Positions 4,264 to 49,490 of a DNA stretch of 64,000 bases are shown piece by piece. The position numbers and the translations under genes were made by a program. The stretch's first letter is position 1. Every line of letters starts with the position of its first letter. The DNA comes from a candidate division TA06 bacterium (GTDB lineage: Bacteria > Edwardsbacteria > AC1 > EtOH8): assembly GCA_016235665.1 (NCBI GenBank), contig JACRJI010000012.1, positions 124,001-188,000 on the forward strand. The letters run 5' to 3'. A model generated the notes under the pieces. The model was given only the letters and a program-made list of their open reading frames with translations. It was not told the DNA's origin and did not search any database.

Positions 4264-4305
4264 CCTCACCCCTGCCCCTCTCCTAAAGCATTAGGAGAGG
4301 GAGGC
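4263..4305 (+). repeat. Family A palindromic repeat, copy A1
   Basis: A GC-rich repeat starting acctcacccctgcccctctc, directly after the nuoF-like stop codon. The stem is cctctcctaa / ttaggagagg with loop agca, a 10-bp perfect hairpin. It shares the outer arm with copies at 43466 and 43903, but its stem bases near the loop differ and still pair. Confidence 0.85.
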
Positions 4306-8014: not shown

Positions 8015-9901
8015 ATGAAAAAGCTTACCCTGATAGCCCTGACGGCGGCTTTGATCCTGAGCTGCTTCAGCTATCTCCAGTCCCAGCAGACCGGCAGCCT
8101 GGCCGGGACGGTCACCGACGCCAGGACCGGCCGGGCCGTTTCCGGGGCCGCGGTCAATATTTTGAACACGCAATTCAGCGCCCTGACCGATAACCAGGGG
8201 AAGTATCTCATAAACAATGTCCCGGCCGGAAAATATTCCATCCAAGCCTCAGCCGCCGGGTACGATGCCCAGGTCAGAAAAAATATCACGGTCAAAGCCG
8301 GTTCGACAGTGACTGTTGACTTCAAACTAAACCCCCCGATCCCGGCCAAGGACGAGAAGAACCGGCTGTTTCCTGATGTGGCGGCAAAATGCTGTGAACA
8401 ATCGGCCCCGGCCTGCATGCCAATAGGCTCCGGAATGGTCTACCGGGGACAGCCCCAGGACTTCAACACCGAGGAATACTCCAAGATAGAAGAGAACGCC
8501 TTTAAGCAGGTCAAAGCCGACCCGCTTTCCACCTTCTCCATCGACGTGGACCCGGCCAGCTATGCCAATATGCGGCGGTTCATTAGCTCCGGGCAGCTGC
8601 CGCCCAAGGATGCTATCAGGATAGAAGAACTGATCAACTATTTCGACTATACCTACGCCCAGCCCGGCGATGGCCGCCCCTTTGCGGTGCATACCGAGGT
8701 GGCCGAATGCCCATGGAACCAGGGCCACCGCCTGGTGCGGATAGGCCTGAAGGGAAAAGAAATACCTCTGGACAAGCTTCCCCCGGCCAATCTGGTCTTT
8801 TTGTTGGACGTCTCCGGCTCAATGCAAAGCCCTGACAAACTTCCCCTTTTGAAATCAGCCTTCAAACTGCTGGTCAACCAGCTGCGGCCTCAGGACAGGG
8901 TGGCCATCGCGGTCTACGCCAGCGCCGAGGGTCTGGTCCTGCCCTCCACTCCGGGCAGCGACAAGAAGACCATCCTGGAAATGCTGGACAAACTGGAGGC
9001 CGGGGGCTGCACCGCCGGGGCGGCCGGGATCCAGCTGGCATACAGGACAGCCAGGGAGAATTTCATCAAGCACGGCAACAACCGGGTGATATTGGCCACC
9101 GACGGGGATTTCAATGTGGGAGTCTCCTCCACTTCGGAACTGATCCGGATGATCGAGCAGAAGAGGGAAGAGGGGATTTACCTTTCGGTGCTGGGCTTCG
9201 GCACCGGAAATCTCAAGGACTCCAGGATGGAACAGCTGGCCGACAAGGGCAATGGCAACTACGCCTACATCGACAACATCACCGAGGCCCGCAAGGTGCT
9301 GGTCAGCCAGATGGGAGGCACCCTGTTCACCATCGCCAAGGACGTCAAGATCCAGGTGGAATTCAACCCGGCCAAGGTGAAGGCCTACAAGCTGATCGGT
9401 TACGAGAACCGGCTGCTGAACAAGGAAGACTTCAACAACGACAGGAAGGACGCAGGCGAGCTGGGCTCCGGCCACACCGTGACCGCTCTGTACGAGATCA
9501 TCCCGGCCGGTTCACAGGAAGAGGTCCCGGGGGTGGATCCCTTAAAGTACCAGGAGACCAAGGTCTCCCCCAATGCTTCCAAGAGTTCCGAGATGATGAC
9601 GGTGAAACTGCGCTACAAGCTGCCGGCCGAGAGCGAAAGCAAGCTGATCTCCAAAGTGATCATGGACCGCAACGGCGAGATGGCGGAAGCTTCTGAAGAT
9701 TTCAGATTTGCCGCGGCGGTGGCCGAGTTCGGCCTGCTGATCAGGGACTCCGAGTTCAAGGGCAAGGCATCGTACGGGCAGGCTTTGGCGCTGGCCCGCG
9801 GGGCCAAGGGGCAGGACAAGGAGGGCTACCGGGCCGAGTTCATCAAACTGGCCGAGACGGCCCAGCTGCTGACCAAGAATCAGAGCCAAAATCAGGATTA
9901 G
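8015..9901 (+). CDS. VWA domain protein, YfbK-like, with N-terminal CarboxypepD_reg domain
   Basis: A 628-residue exported protein. The hydrophobic leader MKKLTLIALTAALILSC could be a lipoprotein signal (Cys at 17), though the lipobox is imperfect. A carboxypeptidase-regulatory beta-sandwich follows at about 28-108 (GSLAGTVTDARTG...SAAGYDAQV). Next comes the von Willebrand N-terminal region and a VWA domain whose MIDAS motif DVSGSMQ lies near 264, and finally a C-terminal region like DUF3520. This is the order seen in E. coli YfbK homologues, whose exact role is unclear; VWA proteins bind partners through a divalent metal. GGGAGAGG precedes the ATG. It is followed by a strong terminator and looks monocistronic. 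Confidence 0.88.
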   Translation: MKKLTLIALTAALILSCFSYLQSQQTGSLAGTVTDARTGRAVSGAAVNILNTQFSALTDNQGKYLINNVPAGKYSIQASAAGYDAQVRKNITVKAGSTVTVDFKLNPPIPAKDEKNRLFPDVAAKCCEQSAPACMPIGSGMVYRGQPQDFNTEEYSKIEENAFKQVKADPLSTFSIDVDPASYANMRRFISSGQLPPKDAIRIEELINYFDYTYAQPGDGRPFAVHTEVAECPWNQGHRLVRIGLKGKEIPLDKLPPANLVFLLDVSGSMQSPDKLPLLKSAFKLLVNQLRPQDRVAIAVYASAEGLVLPSTPGSDKKTILEMLDKLEAGGCTAGAAGIQLAYRTARENFIKHGNNRVILATDGDFNVGVSSTSELIRMIEQKREEGIYLSVLGFGTGNLKDSRMEQLADKGNGNYAYIDNITEARKVLVSQMGGTLFTIAKDVKIQVEFNPAKVKAYKLIGYENRLLNKEDFNNDRKDAGELGSGHTVTALYEIIPAGSQEEVPGVDPLKYQETKVSPNASKSSEMMTVKLRYKLPAESESKLISKVIMDRNGEMAEASEDFRFAAAVAEFGLLIRDSEFKGKASYGQALALARGAKGQDKEGYRAEFIKLAETAQLLTKNQSQNQD

Positions 9902-13023: not shown

Positions 13024-13060
13024 TACTCCCCTTCTCTTTTAAAGAGAAGGGGACGGGGGA
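13024..13060 (-). repeat. Family A palindromic repeat, copy A9
   Basis: ccccttctcttt and aaagagaagggg form a 12-bp perfect stem, followed by gacggggga. Read on the minus strand it is a divergent member of the CCTC-CCC palindrome family. It lies between the batE stop and the terminator-like palindrome at 12938, and could end the Bat operon transcript. Confidence 0.6.
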
Positions 13061-23685: not shown

Positions 23686-24126
23686 ATGGATAATAATGAT
23701 AAACGAACCCCAGGCGTTTCTACCGGTCAATTTATCAGTAGAGATAAACGGGAAATGGCAAAACATATGCGCCAGCATATGACAGTTGCTGAGAAATGTT
23801 TTTGGAATGAGGTAAGAAAAAGAAGGTTCCCAGGATTACGGTTTAGAAGACAACAGGTGATTGATGGTTTTATCGCCGATTTTTATTGCAACGAATTAAG
23901 AATGGTTATTGAAATTGACGGAGGGATACATGAGAAACAGAAGGATTATGATAAGTTGAGAGACCAAATAATCAACCAACGTGGGATCAAAGTGTTAAGA
24001 TTTAAGAACGAAGACGTGATAAATAGGATAGAGTGGGTATTGGAAACAATTTTGGGGTACGACCCCACCCTGCCCTCCCCTAAAGCTTTAGGGGAGGGAG
24101 AAAAGGGAGGGGTATGCCTAAACTGA
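23686..24126 (+). CDS. DUF559 endonuclease-like protein, copy 1
   Basis: A 146-residue DUF559 protein, related to the Vsr/restriction-endonuclease-like fold. Features: MTVAEKCFWNEVRKRR, GLRFRRQQVIDGFIADFYC, VIEIDGGIHEKQKDYDKLRD and IKVLRFKNEDV. The Asp of ADFYC, the E-x-D of IEIDG and the following His are the likely metal and catalytic residues. The last residues (PTLPSPKALGEGEKG) are translated from palindrome A4, and the gene overlaps the polA start by 13 bases. A close paralogue is at 43534. Base use is A/T-rich compared with polA. DUF559 proteins are of unproven function; some are linked to DNA mobility or repair. Confidence 0.88.
   Translation: MDNNDKRTPGVSTGQFISRDKREMAKHMRQHMTVAEKCFWNEVRKRRFPGLRFRRQQVIDGFIADFYCNELRMVIEIDGGIHEKQKDYDKLRDQIINQRGIKVLRFKNEDVINRIEWVLETILGYDPTLPSPKALGEGEKGGVCLN
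24061..24108 (+). repeat. Family A palindromic repeat, copy A4
   Basis: A 26-bp perfect palindrome (24073-24098) whose half is ccctcccctaaag, preceded by gaccccaccctg and followed by agaaaagggagggg. The right part supplies the GGGAGGGG ribosome site of polA, and the whole repeat encodes the C-terminal tail of the DUF559 protein. Confidence 0.85.
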
Positions 24127-41807: not shown

Positions 41808-43460
41808 ATGTCAAAACAATACCTGCAAGACCAGATACTGCTGGCGGCGGAAAAAGCCACCGGGATCAAAATAGAAGCAAAAAACCTGACGCTGGAAAAG
41901 CCCAAGCAGGCCGCCCACGGCGACTGGGCCACCAGCATCGCCCTGTCGCTGGCCAAGGAGCTTAAGGCCAAGCCCCGGGACATCGCCCAGAATATCGTCG
42001 ATTCTCTGGAACTCGATGCCTCTCTTGTTGCCAAGACCGAGATCGCCGGGCCGGGGTTCATTAATTTTACCCTGACCTCGGATTGGCTGTACAAGGAACT
42101 GACGGGACTATTATCACAAGGCTCCAAATACGGGCAATCCCAAATGGGCCCCTCGACTTTGCTCGGGGTCCCCAAAAAAGCTCAGGTCGAATTCGTCTCA
42201 TCCAACCCCACCGGGCCGCTGAACGTGGGCCACGGCCGGCAGGCGGCCATCGGGGACTCACTGTGCCGGCTGCTGGAGGCCACCGGCTACCAGGTGACCC
42301 GGGAATATTATTTCAACAACGCCGGTCTGCAGATGAAGAAACTGGCACAGTCGGTCTTCCTGCGTTACCAGGAAATATTAGGCAAAAAGATCGATTTTCC
42401 CGAGGACCTATACCAGGGCGAATACATCAAGGAGATCGCCGGGAACTGCCGCCGGGAGAAGGGCGATTCGCTGACCGAGGCCGACCTGGAGTACTTCAAG
42501 CAGAGCGCGGTGGCGGTGATCTTCGAGGAGATCAAGGCCACCCTTAAACGGATGGGCATCGTCTTCGATGTTTTCTACAACGAAAGCGACCTTTACCAGA
42601 GAGGCGAGATCGAAAGCACCCTGCAGGCCCTCAAGGGCCAGGGGCTGACCTACGAGAGCGAGGGCGCTGTCTGGTTCAAGGCCACCCAGTTCGGGGCCGA
42701 GAAGGACCGGGTGCTGGTGCGTTCCACCGGCGAGCCCACCTACCGCCTGCCGGACATCGCCTACCACCTCACCAAATTTAAACGGGGCTTCGACCTGGTG
42801 ATAGATGTATTCGGGTCGGACCACCAGGCCACCTTCCCCGACGTGCTGGCCGCGTTGGGCGCGCTGGGCTTCGATCCTTCGCGGATCGATGTCCGGATCC
42901 ACCAGTTCGTGACTTTGATGCGGGGCGGCGAGCAGGTAAAGATGTCCACCCGCAAGGCCAACTTCGTCACCCTGGACGAGCTATTTGACGAGGTGGGGGC
43001 TGACGCTGCCCGCTACTTCTTTTTGATGCGGCGGATGGAGTCGCACCTGGACTTTGACCTGGACCTGGCCAAGAAGAAATCCGACGAGAACCCGGTCTTC
43101 TATGTGCAGTACGCCCATGCCCGGATCTGCTCGATCCTGGAGCACGCCAAGGAGAAAGGCGTGGTGCGGGCCGCCGGGGACCTGCTGCTTTTGAAAGAAC
43201 CGGAGGAGATAAAGCTGATAAAATCCCTGCTTGAATTCCCGGAGCTGGTGCAGGGAGCGGCCCAGTCGCGGGAACCGCACCGCATACCGACCTACCTGCA
43301 GGAGCTGGCCGGGATTTTTCACAACTTTTACCACCAGCACCGGGTGGTCACCGAGGACCAGGCGCTGTCCAACGCCCGGCTGGATTTGTGCCAGGCCACC
43401 CGCACCGTGATCGCCAACGGGCTGGGGCTTTTGGGGGTAAGCGCACCGGAGAAGATGTAA
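41808..43460 (+). CDS. argS: Arginyl-tRNA synthetase
   Basis: A 550-residue class I synthetase. HIGH-type motif NVGHGRQ near 138, after SSNPTGPL; KMSK-like motif KMSTRKANF; the C-terminal DALR anticodon domain includes YVQYAHARICSILEH. The short AlaX-like N-terminal Add1 domain (first 110 residues) is present. Residues 114-122 (GPSTLLGVP) are encoded by a repeat cccctcgactttgctcgggg, in frame in the loop just before the catalytic domain. The start at 41808 has no strong ribosome site. Family length is slightly extended by the insert. Confidence 0.95.
   Translation: MSKQYLQDQILLAAEKATGIKIEAKNLTLEKPKQAAHGDWATSIALSLAKELKAKPRDIAQNIVDSLELDASLVAKTEIAGPGFINFTLTSDWLYKELTGLLSQGSKYGQSQMGPSTLLGVPKKAQVEFVSSNPTGPLNVGHGRQAAIGDSLCRLLEATGYQVTREYYFNNAGLQMKKLAQSVFLRYQEILGKKIDFPEDLYQGEYIKEIAGNCRREKGDSLTEADLEYFKQSAVAVIFEEIKATLKRMGIVFDVFYNESDLYQRGEIESTLQALKGQGLTYESEGAVWFKATQFGAEKDRVLVRSTGEPTYRLPDIAYHLTKFKRGFDLVIDVFGSDHQATFPDVLAALGALGFDPSRIDVRIHQFVTLMRGGEQVKMSTRKANFVTLDELFDEVGADAARYFFLMRRMESHLDFDLDLAKKKSDENPVFYVQYAHARICSILEHAKEKGVVRAAGDLLLLKEPEEIKLIKSLLEFPELVQGAAQSREPHRIPTYLQELAGIFHNFYHQHRVVTEDQALSNARLDLCQATRTVIANGLGLLGVSAPEKM
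42146..42173 (+). repeat. Short palindromic repeat in frame within argS
   Basis: ggcccctcgactttgctcgg followed by ggtcccc. The cctcgac...gctcggg form is a common dispersed sequence type. It adds about nine residues to ArgS in a loop between the N-terminal and catalytic domains. Confidence 0.6.
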
Positions 43461-43465
43461 ACCTG

Positions 43466-43514
43466 TTTCGACCTCACCCCTGCCCCTCTCCAAACGCATT
43501 TGGAGAGGGAGGTT
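43466..43514 (+). repeat. Family A palindrome A2, left end of DUF559 unit
   Basis: Starts tttcgacctcacccctgccc; the stem is cctctccaaa / tttggagagg with loop cgca. Bases 43466-43492 form a perfect 27-bp inverted repeat with 43926-43952. The GGGAGG at its inner end can act as a ribosome site for a 14-codon leader frame (43518-43562) overlapping the DUF559 start. Confidence 0.9.
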
Positions 43515-43533
43515 GTAATGAGTAAAAGCATTT

Positions 43534-43944
43534 ATGTCAAGTGCAAAGAATTTTGGTGTTAGCACCGGGCGCCGGATCAAGAACGAGAAACTTGAAATGG
43601 CAAAGCAAATGCGGAGGGAGATGACCTATGCCGAGCGATGCTTCTGGAACGGGGTCAGGGGCCGCAAACTGCATGGCTTGAAGTTCCGCCGCCAGCAGAT
43701 CATTGACGGGTTTATAGCAGATTTCTATTGTAACGAGCTAAGGCTGATAGTTGAGATAGACGGCGGGGTTCACGAGACCCAGAAGGATTATGATAAACTC
43801 CGCGACAGGATAATCAGCCGGAATGATATTAAAGTTATCCGGTTTCCCAACGAGCTGGTCGTAGACCAGTTTGATACTGTGGCCAAACGTATTGGTGAAC
43901 TACGGCCTCCCTCGCCAGGTTTACCTGGAGAGGGGCAGGGGTGA
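43534..43944 (+). CDS. DUF559 endonuclease-like protein, copy 2
   Basis: 136 residues, closely related to the copy at 23686. Shared blocks: FRRQQIIDGFIADFYCNELR, VEIDGGVHETQKDYDKLRDR and IKVIRFPNE. The fold is the Vsr/PD-(D/E)xK-like one; candidate catalytic residues are D of ADFYC, E-x-D in VEIDG and the following His. The C-terminal RPPSPGLPGEGQG is encoded by palindrome A3. This copy has the GC-rich codon use of the host, so it has been here longer than copy 1. It lies between argS and a methyltransferase and is flanked on both sides by A palindromes. The ATG at 43534 has only a weak ribosome site. Confidence 0.9.
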   Translation: MSSAKNFGVSTGRRIKNEKLEMAKQMRREMTYAERCFWNGVRGRKLHGLKFRRQQIIDGFIADFYCNELRLIVEIDGGVHETQKDYDKLRDRIISRNDIKVIRFPNELVVDQFDTVAKRIGELRPPSPGLPGEGQG

Positions 43945-43952
43945 GGTCGAAA
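43903..43952 (-). repeat. Family A palindrome A3, right end of DUF559 unit
   Basis: Reverse-oriented copy. The 27 bases 43926-43952 are the exact reverse complement of 43466-43492. The inner stem is cctcgccagg / cctggagagg with one mismatch. It encodes the tail of the DUF559 protein, and its gaggt gives the methyltransferase start a ribosome site. Confidence 0.9.
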
Positions 43953-43954
43953 CC

Positions 43955-44626
43955 ATGAGCTTAAAAACCAATTACATAGCCCACGACTCCCAGTACAAGC
44001 GTTTCAAAGCCGAGGGACTGAACGGCTGGAACGACGACGAAACCTGGCAGGCATGGAAGGCGGAAATCCTTGCCCTGATCGCTTCAACCGATTTCCCCAA
44101 ATCGGGAAAAGTGCTGGAGTTGGGCTGCGGGGCCGGGGATGTGGCCCTGCTGTTTGCGGAAAAGGGATATCAGGTCTATGGAATAGACATTGCGCCGAGC
44201 GCCATAGAGTGGGCCAGGGAGAAGAACCTAAAAGCGAATATAAGGGCAGAATTTGAAATCGGTGATGTAACAAAGCTCGGAAGGTGGGAAGACAGATACT
44301 TTGACATCGTGATAGACGGACATTGCCTGCATTGCATCATAGGTGACGACCGGGCCAAAATGCTGGAAGAGGCATGCCGGGTCTTAAGACCCGGAGGATC
44401 GTTTTATGTCAGCAGCATGTGCGGAGATCCGAAGGAGCCGGAAGTATTGAAGAATTATGATCCAGAATCACGTTGCACGATACACGGAGGCGTGGCGGGA
44501 AGGTATTTCGGCTTGCCGGAAGATGTCATCAAAGAGATAGAGAAAGCGGGTTTTAAGATCAAACGACACGAAGTTCGGGATAATAACGAATTGCAAGACG
44601 ATTTGATCGTGCTTGCAGAAAAATAA
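43955..44626 (+). CDS. SAM-dependent methyltransferase
   Basis: A 223-residue class I methyltransferase. SAM motif I VLELGCGAGDVALLFA, the motif II Asp in GYQVYGIDIAP, motif LEEACRVLRPGGSFYVSS and a C-terminal ILAEK-like strand. The substrate is unknown; small-molecule methylases of the UbiE/ubiquinone type look similar. The start at 43955 has GAGGT from repeat A3; an open frame extends upstream into the repeat but is not favoured. GC content is intermediate. No linked gene shows a pathway. Confidence 0.85.
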   Translation: MSLKTNYIAHDSQYKRFKAEGLNGWNDDETWQAWKAEILALIASTDFPKSGKVLELGCGAGDVALLFAEKGYQVYGIDIAPSAIEWAREKNLKANIRAEFEIGDVTKLGRWEDRYFDIVIDGHCLHCIIGDDRAKMLEEACRVLRPGGSFYVSSMCGDPKEPEVLKNYDPESRCTIHGGVAGRYFGLPEDVIKEIEKAGFKIKRHEVRDNNELQDDLIVLAEK

Positions 44627-46342: not shown

Positions 46343-46375
46343 CCCCTCCCTACCCTCCCCGATGCGGAGAGGGAA
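46341..46375 (+). repeat. Family A palindromic repeat, copy A6
   Basis: gacccctccctaccctcccc then gatgcggagaggg, with stem ccctccccg / cggagaggg holding one mismatch. It overlaps the purM stop. Confidence 0.75.
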
Positions 46376-49327: not shown

Positions 49328-49490
49328 TTCGCCCAAGGTTTCGACCCCTCCCTGCCACATTCGCATGTAATATAAAAGTCTATCTCAGTGCAGGCCTCCC
49401 CGATGCGGAGAGGGAAGATATTGTAGGGGCGATTCATGAATCGCCCAAGGATTAACCCCTCCCTGCCCTCCCCCAATGGGAGAGGGTTCG
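49311..49490. repeat. Nested repeat array: G1, interrupted A7, G2, A8
   Basis: Four repeats in a row. G1 (49311-49338): stem gggcgaatc / gattcgccc. A7 (49342-49415): cgacccctccctgcc and ctccccgatgcggag, split by about 39 foreign bases (49357-49395). G2 (49423-49450): palindrome gggcgattcatgaatcgccc. A8 (49453-49490): cccctccctgccctccc with gggagaggg. Order G-A-G-A suggests duplication of a G+A pair. The array links moaC and the MOSC gene. Confidence 0.8.

Follow-up and report, generated by a model that had tools for sequence, protein, structure and literature searches.

A candidate REPtron-like mobile unit pairing a DUF559 nuclease-like gene with dispersed palindromes in Edwardsbacteria

Introduction

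Among described systems, the closest parallel to the locus reported here is offered by the RAYT (TnpA_REP) genes of the IS200/IS605-like Y1 kind and their REP, REPIN and REPtron arrangements, in which a small gene is flanked by palindromes dispersed genome-wide, the gene copies are specific to the repeat type, and the stem carries a conserved mismatch. In the E. coli REP, activity depends on the bulge (PMC8266576). DUF559 units share these traits, and the likeness extends to target duplication, none of which was seen in the DUF559 units. Unlike the RAYTs, however, DUF559 proteins are predicted metal nucleases of the Vsr/EDxHD fold without an HUH/Y1 domain, their repeats lack the GTAG tag and are C-run/G-run palindromes with GACCTC-like ends, and where RAYTs occur in the same genomes, their palindromes are separate ones. 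The CGTC-tagged REPs are likewise widespread palindromes without a known transposase (PMC3733652), whereas the DUF559-linked repeats differ from them in tag and stem and have a clear partner gene.

With respect to the enzyme, the nearest solved fold outside DUF559 is that of the EDxHD homing endonuclease I-Bth0305I (TM 0.69 on target), and one DUF559 gene was once filed under the EDxHD homing endonucleases (PMC9403480). Allele replacement at a fixed site resembles homing, but the DUF559 gene is free-standing, has neither intron nor intein, encodes a single short domain and is tied to dispersed palindromes. The Vsr very-short-patch repair endonuclease and the Caulobacter protein VsrA belong to the same superfamily; VsrA, which contains a DUF559 domain, provokes an SOS response, and a DUF559 protein of Caulobacter is induced by SOS and damages DNA in vivo when a methyltransferase is missing (PMC12907096). 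Vsr senses a mismatch, and the DUF559-linked repeats hold a conserved one, albeit an A.A/T.T mismatch within a hairpin rather than the T.G in duplex of Vsr; unlike Vsr, the DUF559 locus is repeat-flanked and has no linked cytosine methyltransferase. The literature outside subscription papers and preprints yielded no link of DUF559, COG2852 or Vsr to palindromes or repeats, leaving priority uncertain, and among the matches listed in a text search for the repeat letters, none concerned bacterial repeats.

Results

The locus lies in the window, the whole 64,000-nucleotide stretch of Edwardsbacteria DNA analyzed here (Table 1). An earlier note, made from the sequence alone, had described a DUF559 gene between two family-A palindromes in opposite orientation, with exact reverse complements over 27 bp at 43466-43492 and 43926-43952. 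Both statements hold: the gene at 43534-43944 matches DUF559/PF04480 in Pfam (E = 2e-32), and the perfect inverted repeat in fact spans 28 bp (arms 43465-43492 and 43926-43953) within a 53-nt pair that is 81% complementary. The view that each end is a hairpin applies fully to the left palindrome, which folds strongly (z = -5.2), and in weaker form to the right one, which contains mismatches (z = -2.6). As the note had also proposed, the right end encodes the tail of the protein, the stop codon lying inside the palindrome, and supplies the ribosome site of the next gene, GGTGAGG standing directly upstream of the ATG at 43955. The 20-mer CCTCACCCCTGCCCCTCTCC occurs exactly three times in the window and gives four matches with up to three mismatches, versus 0.02 expected in shuffles. 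The gene is free-standing between two complete genes, and no cytosine-5 DNA methyltransferase is linked to it at the locus. Part of the context around the window's second DUF559 gene is also found in genomes G005 and G008.

Table 1. Positions of the DUF559 genes, palindromes and neighboring genes in the window
Feature	Position	Strand	Remarks
Left palindrome	43465..43517	+	GACCTCACCCC end plus inner hairpin CCCTCTCC..GGAGAGGG at 43484-43509
DUF559 (PF04480) endonuclease-like gene	43534..43944	+	136 aa, predicted Vsr/EDxHD-type fold
Right palindrome, inverted orientation	43901..43953	-	codes for DUF559 protein tail and stop codon
argS, left neighbor	41808..43460	+	3' end is left border of insertion site
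SAM-dependent methyltransferase, right neighbor	43955..44626	+	Methyltransf_11 (small-molecule) type, not DNA cytosine methyltransferase
Second DUF559 gene, same group	about 23686..24126	+	tail read through palindrome, overlaps polA start
Palindrome CCCTCCCCTAAAGCTTTAGGGGAGGG	24073..24098	.	3' end of second DUF559 gene; same grammar
Solo family-A palindrome	4264..4301	+	
Inner stem of solo family-B palindrome CCCCTTCTCTT..AAGAGAAGGGG	13028..13052	.	
Solo palindrome CCCTCCCCGATGCGGAGAGGG	46353..46373	.	grammar as at DUF559 genes
Solo palindrome CCCTCCCCCAATGGGAGAGGG	49466..49486	.	grammar as at DUF559 genes

Only PF04480 matched in the DUF559 protein, and no Y1/HUH transposase domain (PF01797) was found. 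With an AlphaFold model (pLDDT 79, pTM 0.75), Foldseek returned the DUF559 structure 3hrl first and then the homing endonuclease I-Bth0305I; the match to 3r3p had E 4e-3, prob 1.00 and TMt 0.69. The modeled protein is thus predicted to have a Vsr/EDxHD homing-endonuclease fold, which makes the likeness to homing endonucleases drawn in the earlier note an apt one. Fifteen columns are invariant in 51 DUF559 proteins (T31, E34, W38, Q54, D63, F64, Y65, E74, D76, G77, H80, D87, R90, R103 and N106), and dN/dS is 0.03, so the protein is under selection.

The 2.7-Mb Edwardsbacteria genome contains five DUF559 genes, all of which (5/5) touch palindromes of one grammar, and tens of solo palindromes of the same grammar are scattered through this genome. 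The pattern is thus wider than the earlier note had described. Family B (CCCCTTCTCTT-loop-AAGAGAAGGGG) has only 21 copies genome-wide and brackets two DUF559 genes of one subgroup (C5 and C13), at which five of these 21 copies are located. Family A-like palindromes number 43, and the remaining three DUF559 genes are accompanied by CCCTCYCC..GGRGAGGG palindrome types.

The solo repeats are imperfect palindromes in which an unpaired step separates the inner stem from an outer stem (GAACTCAWCCCC..GGGGWTGAGTTC, or GACCTCWCCCC..GGGGWGAGGTC). A neutral search admitting outer stems with at most one mismatch yielded 24 distinct complete solo repeats, every one of which has exactly one mismatch in the outer stem (perfect stems, 0/24). 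This mismatch is A.A, or T.T on the other strand, in 22 of the 24, lies mostly just outside the C/G block and is conserved in solo repeats of three stem families; the paired outer arms at 43465/43953 do not carry it. Cyanobacterial repeats contain two inner hairpins (ACCTAACCCCC-P1-P2-GGGGGAGAGGT), and their outer arms also meet in A.A plus A.G. The mismatch is missing from the repeats of Planctomycetota, Bacteroidota and some Chloroflexota, although these share the GACCTCACCCC ends, and is therefore no universal feature. No GTAG (or CGTC) tag was found at the palindromes, which end in GACCTCACCCC or GAACTCAWCCCC, and they have no match in Rfam. Two-hairpin solo repeats of the form GACCTCTCCCC-hp1-hp2-GGGGGCGGTC are grouped within a few kilobases at loci L009, L012 and L013 (G000:C8:224719-227964), and in G008 a 41-bp insertion divides the right palindrome of locus L146 at its center.

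DUF559 loci were gathered without regard to palindromes, on the basis of protein similarity or a profile, with short genes from the same loci as controls and a C-rich-pyrimidine hairpin within 200 bp as the criterion. In the 100 bp beside the DUF559 domain, the density of hairpins with arms of 9 bp or longer is 4-9 per kb; further out it is 0.2-0.4 per kb. The earlier note had made its reading depend on DUF559 genes lying nearer to such palindromes than other genes do, and this is the case: 28 of 45 DUF559 genes versus 3 of 196 controls satisfied the criterion in Edwardsbacteria (p = 1e-21), 8/15 versus 2/77 in another locus set, and 33/41 versus 2/111 in other phyla (p = 2e-23, a value that overstates independence in a set rich in related Nostocales, the effect being seen in the remaining phyla alone). 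Palindromes stood on both sides of 25 of the 41 DUF559 genes from other phyla and of none of the 111 controls. Near DUF559, 155 hairpins have the C-rich-pyrimidine arm first, versus 3 of the opposite sense.

DUF559 genes and such palindromes are found together in eight or more bacterial phyla: Cyanobacteria (16/18), Chloroflexota (3/3), Planctomycetota (2/2), Armatimonadota (3/7), Bacteroidota and relatives (4/9), Spirochaetota and Desulfobacterota (single loci, 1/1 each) and Edwardsbacteria. The single Patescibacteria locus is also positive (1/1), and the ratios are 0/2 in Bacillota and 1/22 in viral contigs. In one viral contig (L272, IMGVR_UViG_3300031451_000150), a DUF559 gene lies between inverted palindromes; the contig is a possible transfer vehicle. 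Palindromes around DUF559 genes are inverted in 27 cases and direct in 8, and the cyanobacterial genes have complete two-hairpin repeats in direct orientation on either side; there is therefore no single transposon-like architecture across DUF559 units. The mobile unit envisaged in the earlier note is supported as such, but it does not take the form of a simple inverted-repeat element in every case.

More palindrome copies are found where DUF559 is present. Of the 19 named genomes, 18 have 2-522 palindrome copies each, versus 0-28 for the control pattern, the highest count of 522 standing against no control copies. Genomes with stand-alone DUF559 show a palindrome excess over the reversed control pattern, and outside the home family this excess has p = 6e-4. 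Stems resemble each other where related DUF559 proteins are encoded at non-orthologous sites, and in Edwardsbacteria protein distance correlates with stem distance across non-orthologous pairs (Mantel r = 0.34, p = 2e-4). Judged from these correlations, gene type and repeat type appear to be cognate, as is characteristic of RAYTs and REPtrons.

None of the 28 Y1_Tnp (RAYT) genes of the same genomes, the most stringent control, has DUF559-type palindromes; other, different hairpins lie near more than half of them, several on both sides. G004 and G009 have DUF559 and palindromes with no Y1_Tnp detected. Edwardsbacteria RAYT genes at L251, L256, L257, L259, L237 and other Y1_Tnp loci have palindrome sets of their own, for example TTAACCCAGCCCTTAAGGGCTGGGTTAA on both sides; two independent gene-palindrome systems therefore coexist.

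The gap between argS and the methyltransferase gene is filled in G000, G002, G003, G007, G008 and G009 and empty in G001, which is of the same genus and in which the methyltransferase start is fused to the argS stop, and in G006; neither empty site has a palindrome. Other genes occupy the gap in G004, and a lone palindrome of another type does so in G005. Empty sites, which the earlier note had suggested looking for, thus exist, and the uniform filling by descent that would have told against mobility did not occur. In G003 (L104), the DUF559 right palindrome is separated from the methyltransferase gene by an acetyltransferase gene, after which the right palindrome occurs a second time; this acetyltransferase is also present in the empty site of G006.

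The DUF559 gene of G008 is 92.6% identical to that of the window, with argS only 75% identical. Between G008 and its congeners, argS is 92-94% identical and DUF559 72-74%. The switch point is the left palindrome, and the methyltransferase gene is partly carried along. By these identities, the element at the argS site has undergone a cross-genus replacement starting at the left palindrome. The copy in the window is old at its site, not freshly inserted, and has been horizontally replaced.

In Nostoc, L187 and L188 are 92% identical over 582 bp, from ACCTAACCCC to the 3' hairpin, with unrelated flanks, and G014 has two copies of the DUF559 unit at unrelated places. The same unit thus recurs in unrelated contexts, the classical mark of IS elements and MITEs. 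An 88-bp two-hairpin repeat with sharp ends is dispersed in the Nostoc-group genomes searched. At the site orthologous to L187 (P1-P2-gene-P1), G080 has a single P1 palindrome, a difference that may have arisen by deletion between the two direct P1 repeats. In agreement with the earlier note, no target-site duplication was found at the argS site, and none in the pair L187/L188. A solo palindrome in a DUF559 pseudogene (L098, G002:C203, about 8675-8850) replaces about 16 bp; among the fetched loci, this is the one clear empty-site case for a solo repeat, and several others are confounded.

Discussion

Our data make it likely that 43465-43953 is a copy of a REPtron-like mobile unit in which a Vsr-type nuclease cuts folded palindromes and which spreads by break repair. 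The association of DUF559 with palindromes and the mobility of the unit are strongly supported by comparison among genomes, which documents specificity, dispersal, presence/absence polymorphism, horizontal replacement and unit boundaries at palindromes. We infer the cleavage of palindromes and the repair route as follows. The DUF559 enzyme would recognize its palindrome either as a single-strand fold or as an extruded cruciform, and would nick or cut there. One strand would be distinguishable by the conserved A.A/T.T mismatch beside the C/G block. Host break repair or recombination would then carry copies of palindromes to new sites, either alone or together with the gene. Such copying would explain both the lack of target duplication and the small target deletion. 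Counting against this explanation are the DUF559 genes without palindromes (only 3/7 with them in Armatimonadota, 0/2 in Bacillota and 1/22 in viral contigs) and the absence of the A.A/T.T mismatch from the repeats of several phyla and from the outer arms of the window's own copy. The lack of one uniform architecture, the alternative reading of the G080 difference as a deletion and the age of the window's copy at its site also weigh against it.

The main rival is that DUF559 is merely a free-standing homing gene that inserts into palindromes which are ordinary dispersed repeats, spread by other means. The nearest fold, I-Bth0305I, is that of a homing endonuclease, a single palindrome in G080 occupies exactly the site of the palindrome-gene-palindrome unit of L187, and the cross-genus gene replacement at the argS site resembles homing or gene conversion. 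However, the empty sites of G001 and G006 have no palindrome, palindrome numbers track DUF559 across genomes, and no other mobilizer was found, the RAYTs having different palindromes. We therefore consider homing alone improbable; homing into pre-existing palindromes may nevertheless be part of the same process as break-repair copying. That RAYT/TIRYT elements of the Y1 transposase kind spread the palindromes, with DUF559 as a passenger, would fit the GGGGWSAS motif in the TIRs of some RAYT-like genes (PMC3733652), with which the GGGGTGAG / GGGGAGAG ends also agree, and the presence of Y1_Tnp genes in most of these genomes. Yet the Y1_Tnp genes have distinct palindromes of their own (0/28 with those discussed here), which tells strongly against RAYT as the mobilizer, and with G004 and G009 doing without any detected Y1_Tnp, the passenger role is highly unlikely.

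Equally remote is the reading of the palindromes as RNA elements, either terminators or a repeat-RNA antitoxin like those of type III toxin-antitoxin systems, serving an RNase-like DUF559 protein with no mobility of the DNA. Hairpins do lie at gene ends, and Vsr-like RAP domains are reported to be able to act on RNA (PMC11879112), but tens to hundreds of gene-less copies lie away from DUF559, the unit boundaries are kept in unrelated contexts, and palindromes flank the gene on both sides and in both orientations. Terminators and other Rfam RNAs are also rejected by the missing Rfam match and by the 155:3 bias in arm composition, which is unlike that of terminators. Palindromes are known to be fragile, recombinogenic sites. 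Ordinary intergenic hairpins could thus, by chance or as recombination hot spots, collect any mobile gene; this is very improbable, however, as neither the control genes nor RAYT, another mobile family, gather at these palindromes, and as stem sequence tracks protein type. Vertical inheritance alone is ruled out by the empty sites and the cross-genus replacement. A defense system was rejected on merely weak PADLOC matches to nuclease folds, and a phage origin on the rarity of palindromes at viral DUF559 genes.

The parallel with RAYT/REP elements, already drawn in the earlier note, is apt as an analogy. By this analogy, the DUF559 unit would work like a REPtron without being one (PMC3116915, PMC8266576, PMC3733652), because enzyme class, tags and repeats differ and RAYTs use other palindromes. 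DUF559 genes and their palindromes point to mobile DNA of a hitherto undescribed type, with a repair-type nuclease at its base. A wider reading, which we offer tentatively and regard as possible if somewhat doubtful, is that of a phylum-spanning selfish DNA whose Vsr-fold nuclease recognizes a folded palindrome containing a built-in T.T (A.A) mismatch and copies it via break repair, the C-rich palindromes found by the hundreds in cyanobacteria, planctomycetes, chloroflexi and others being its gene-less miniature offspring. If true, this would provide a function for PF04480, a widespread domain still named "unknown function," a partner enzyme for palindromes of which many bacteria have hundreds of copies, and a chemistry of mobile elements that has no relation to the HUH, DDE, serine or tyrosine enzymes.
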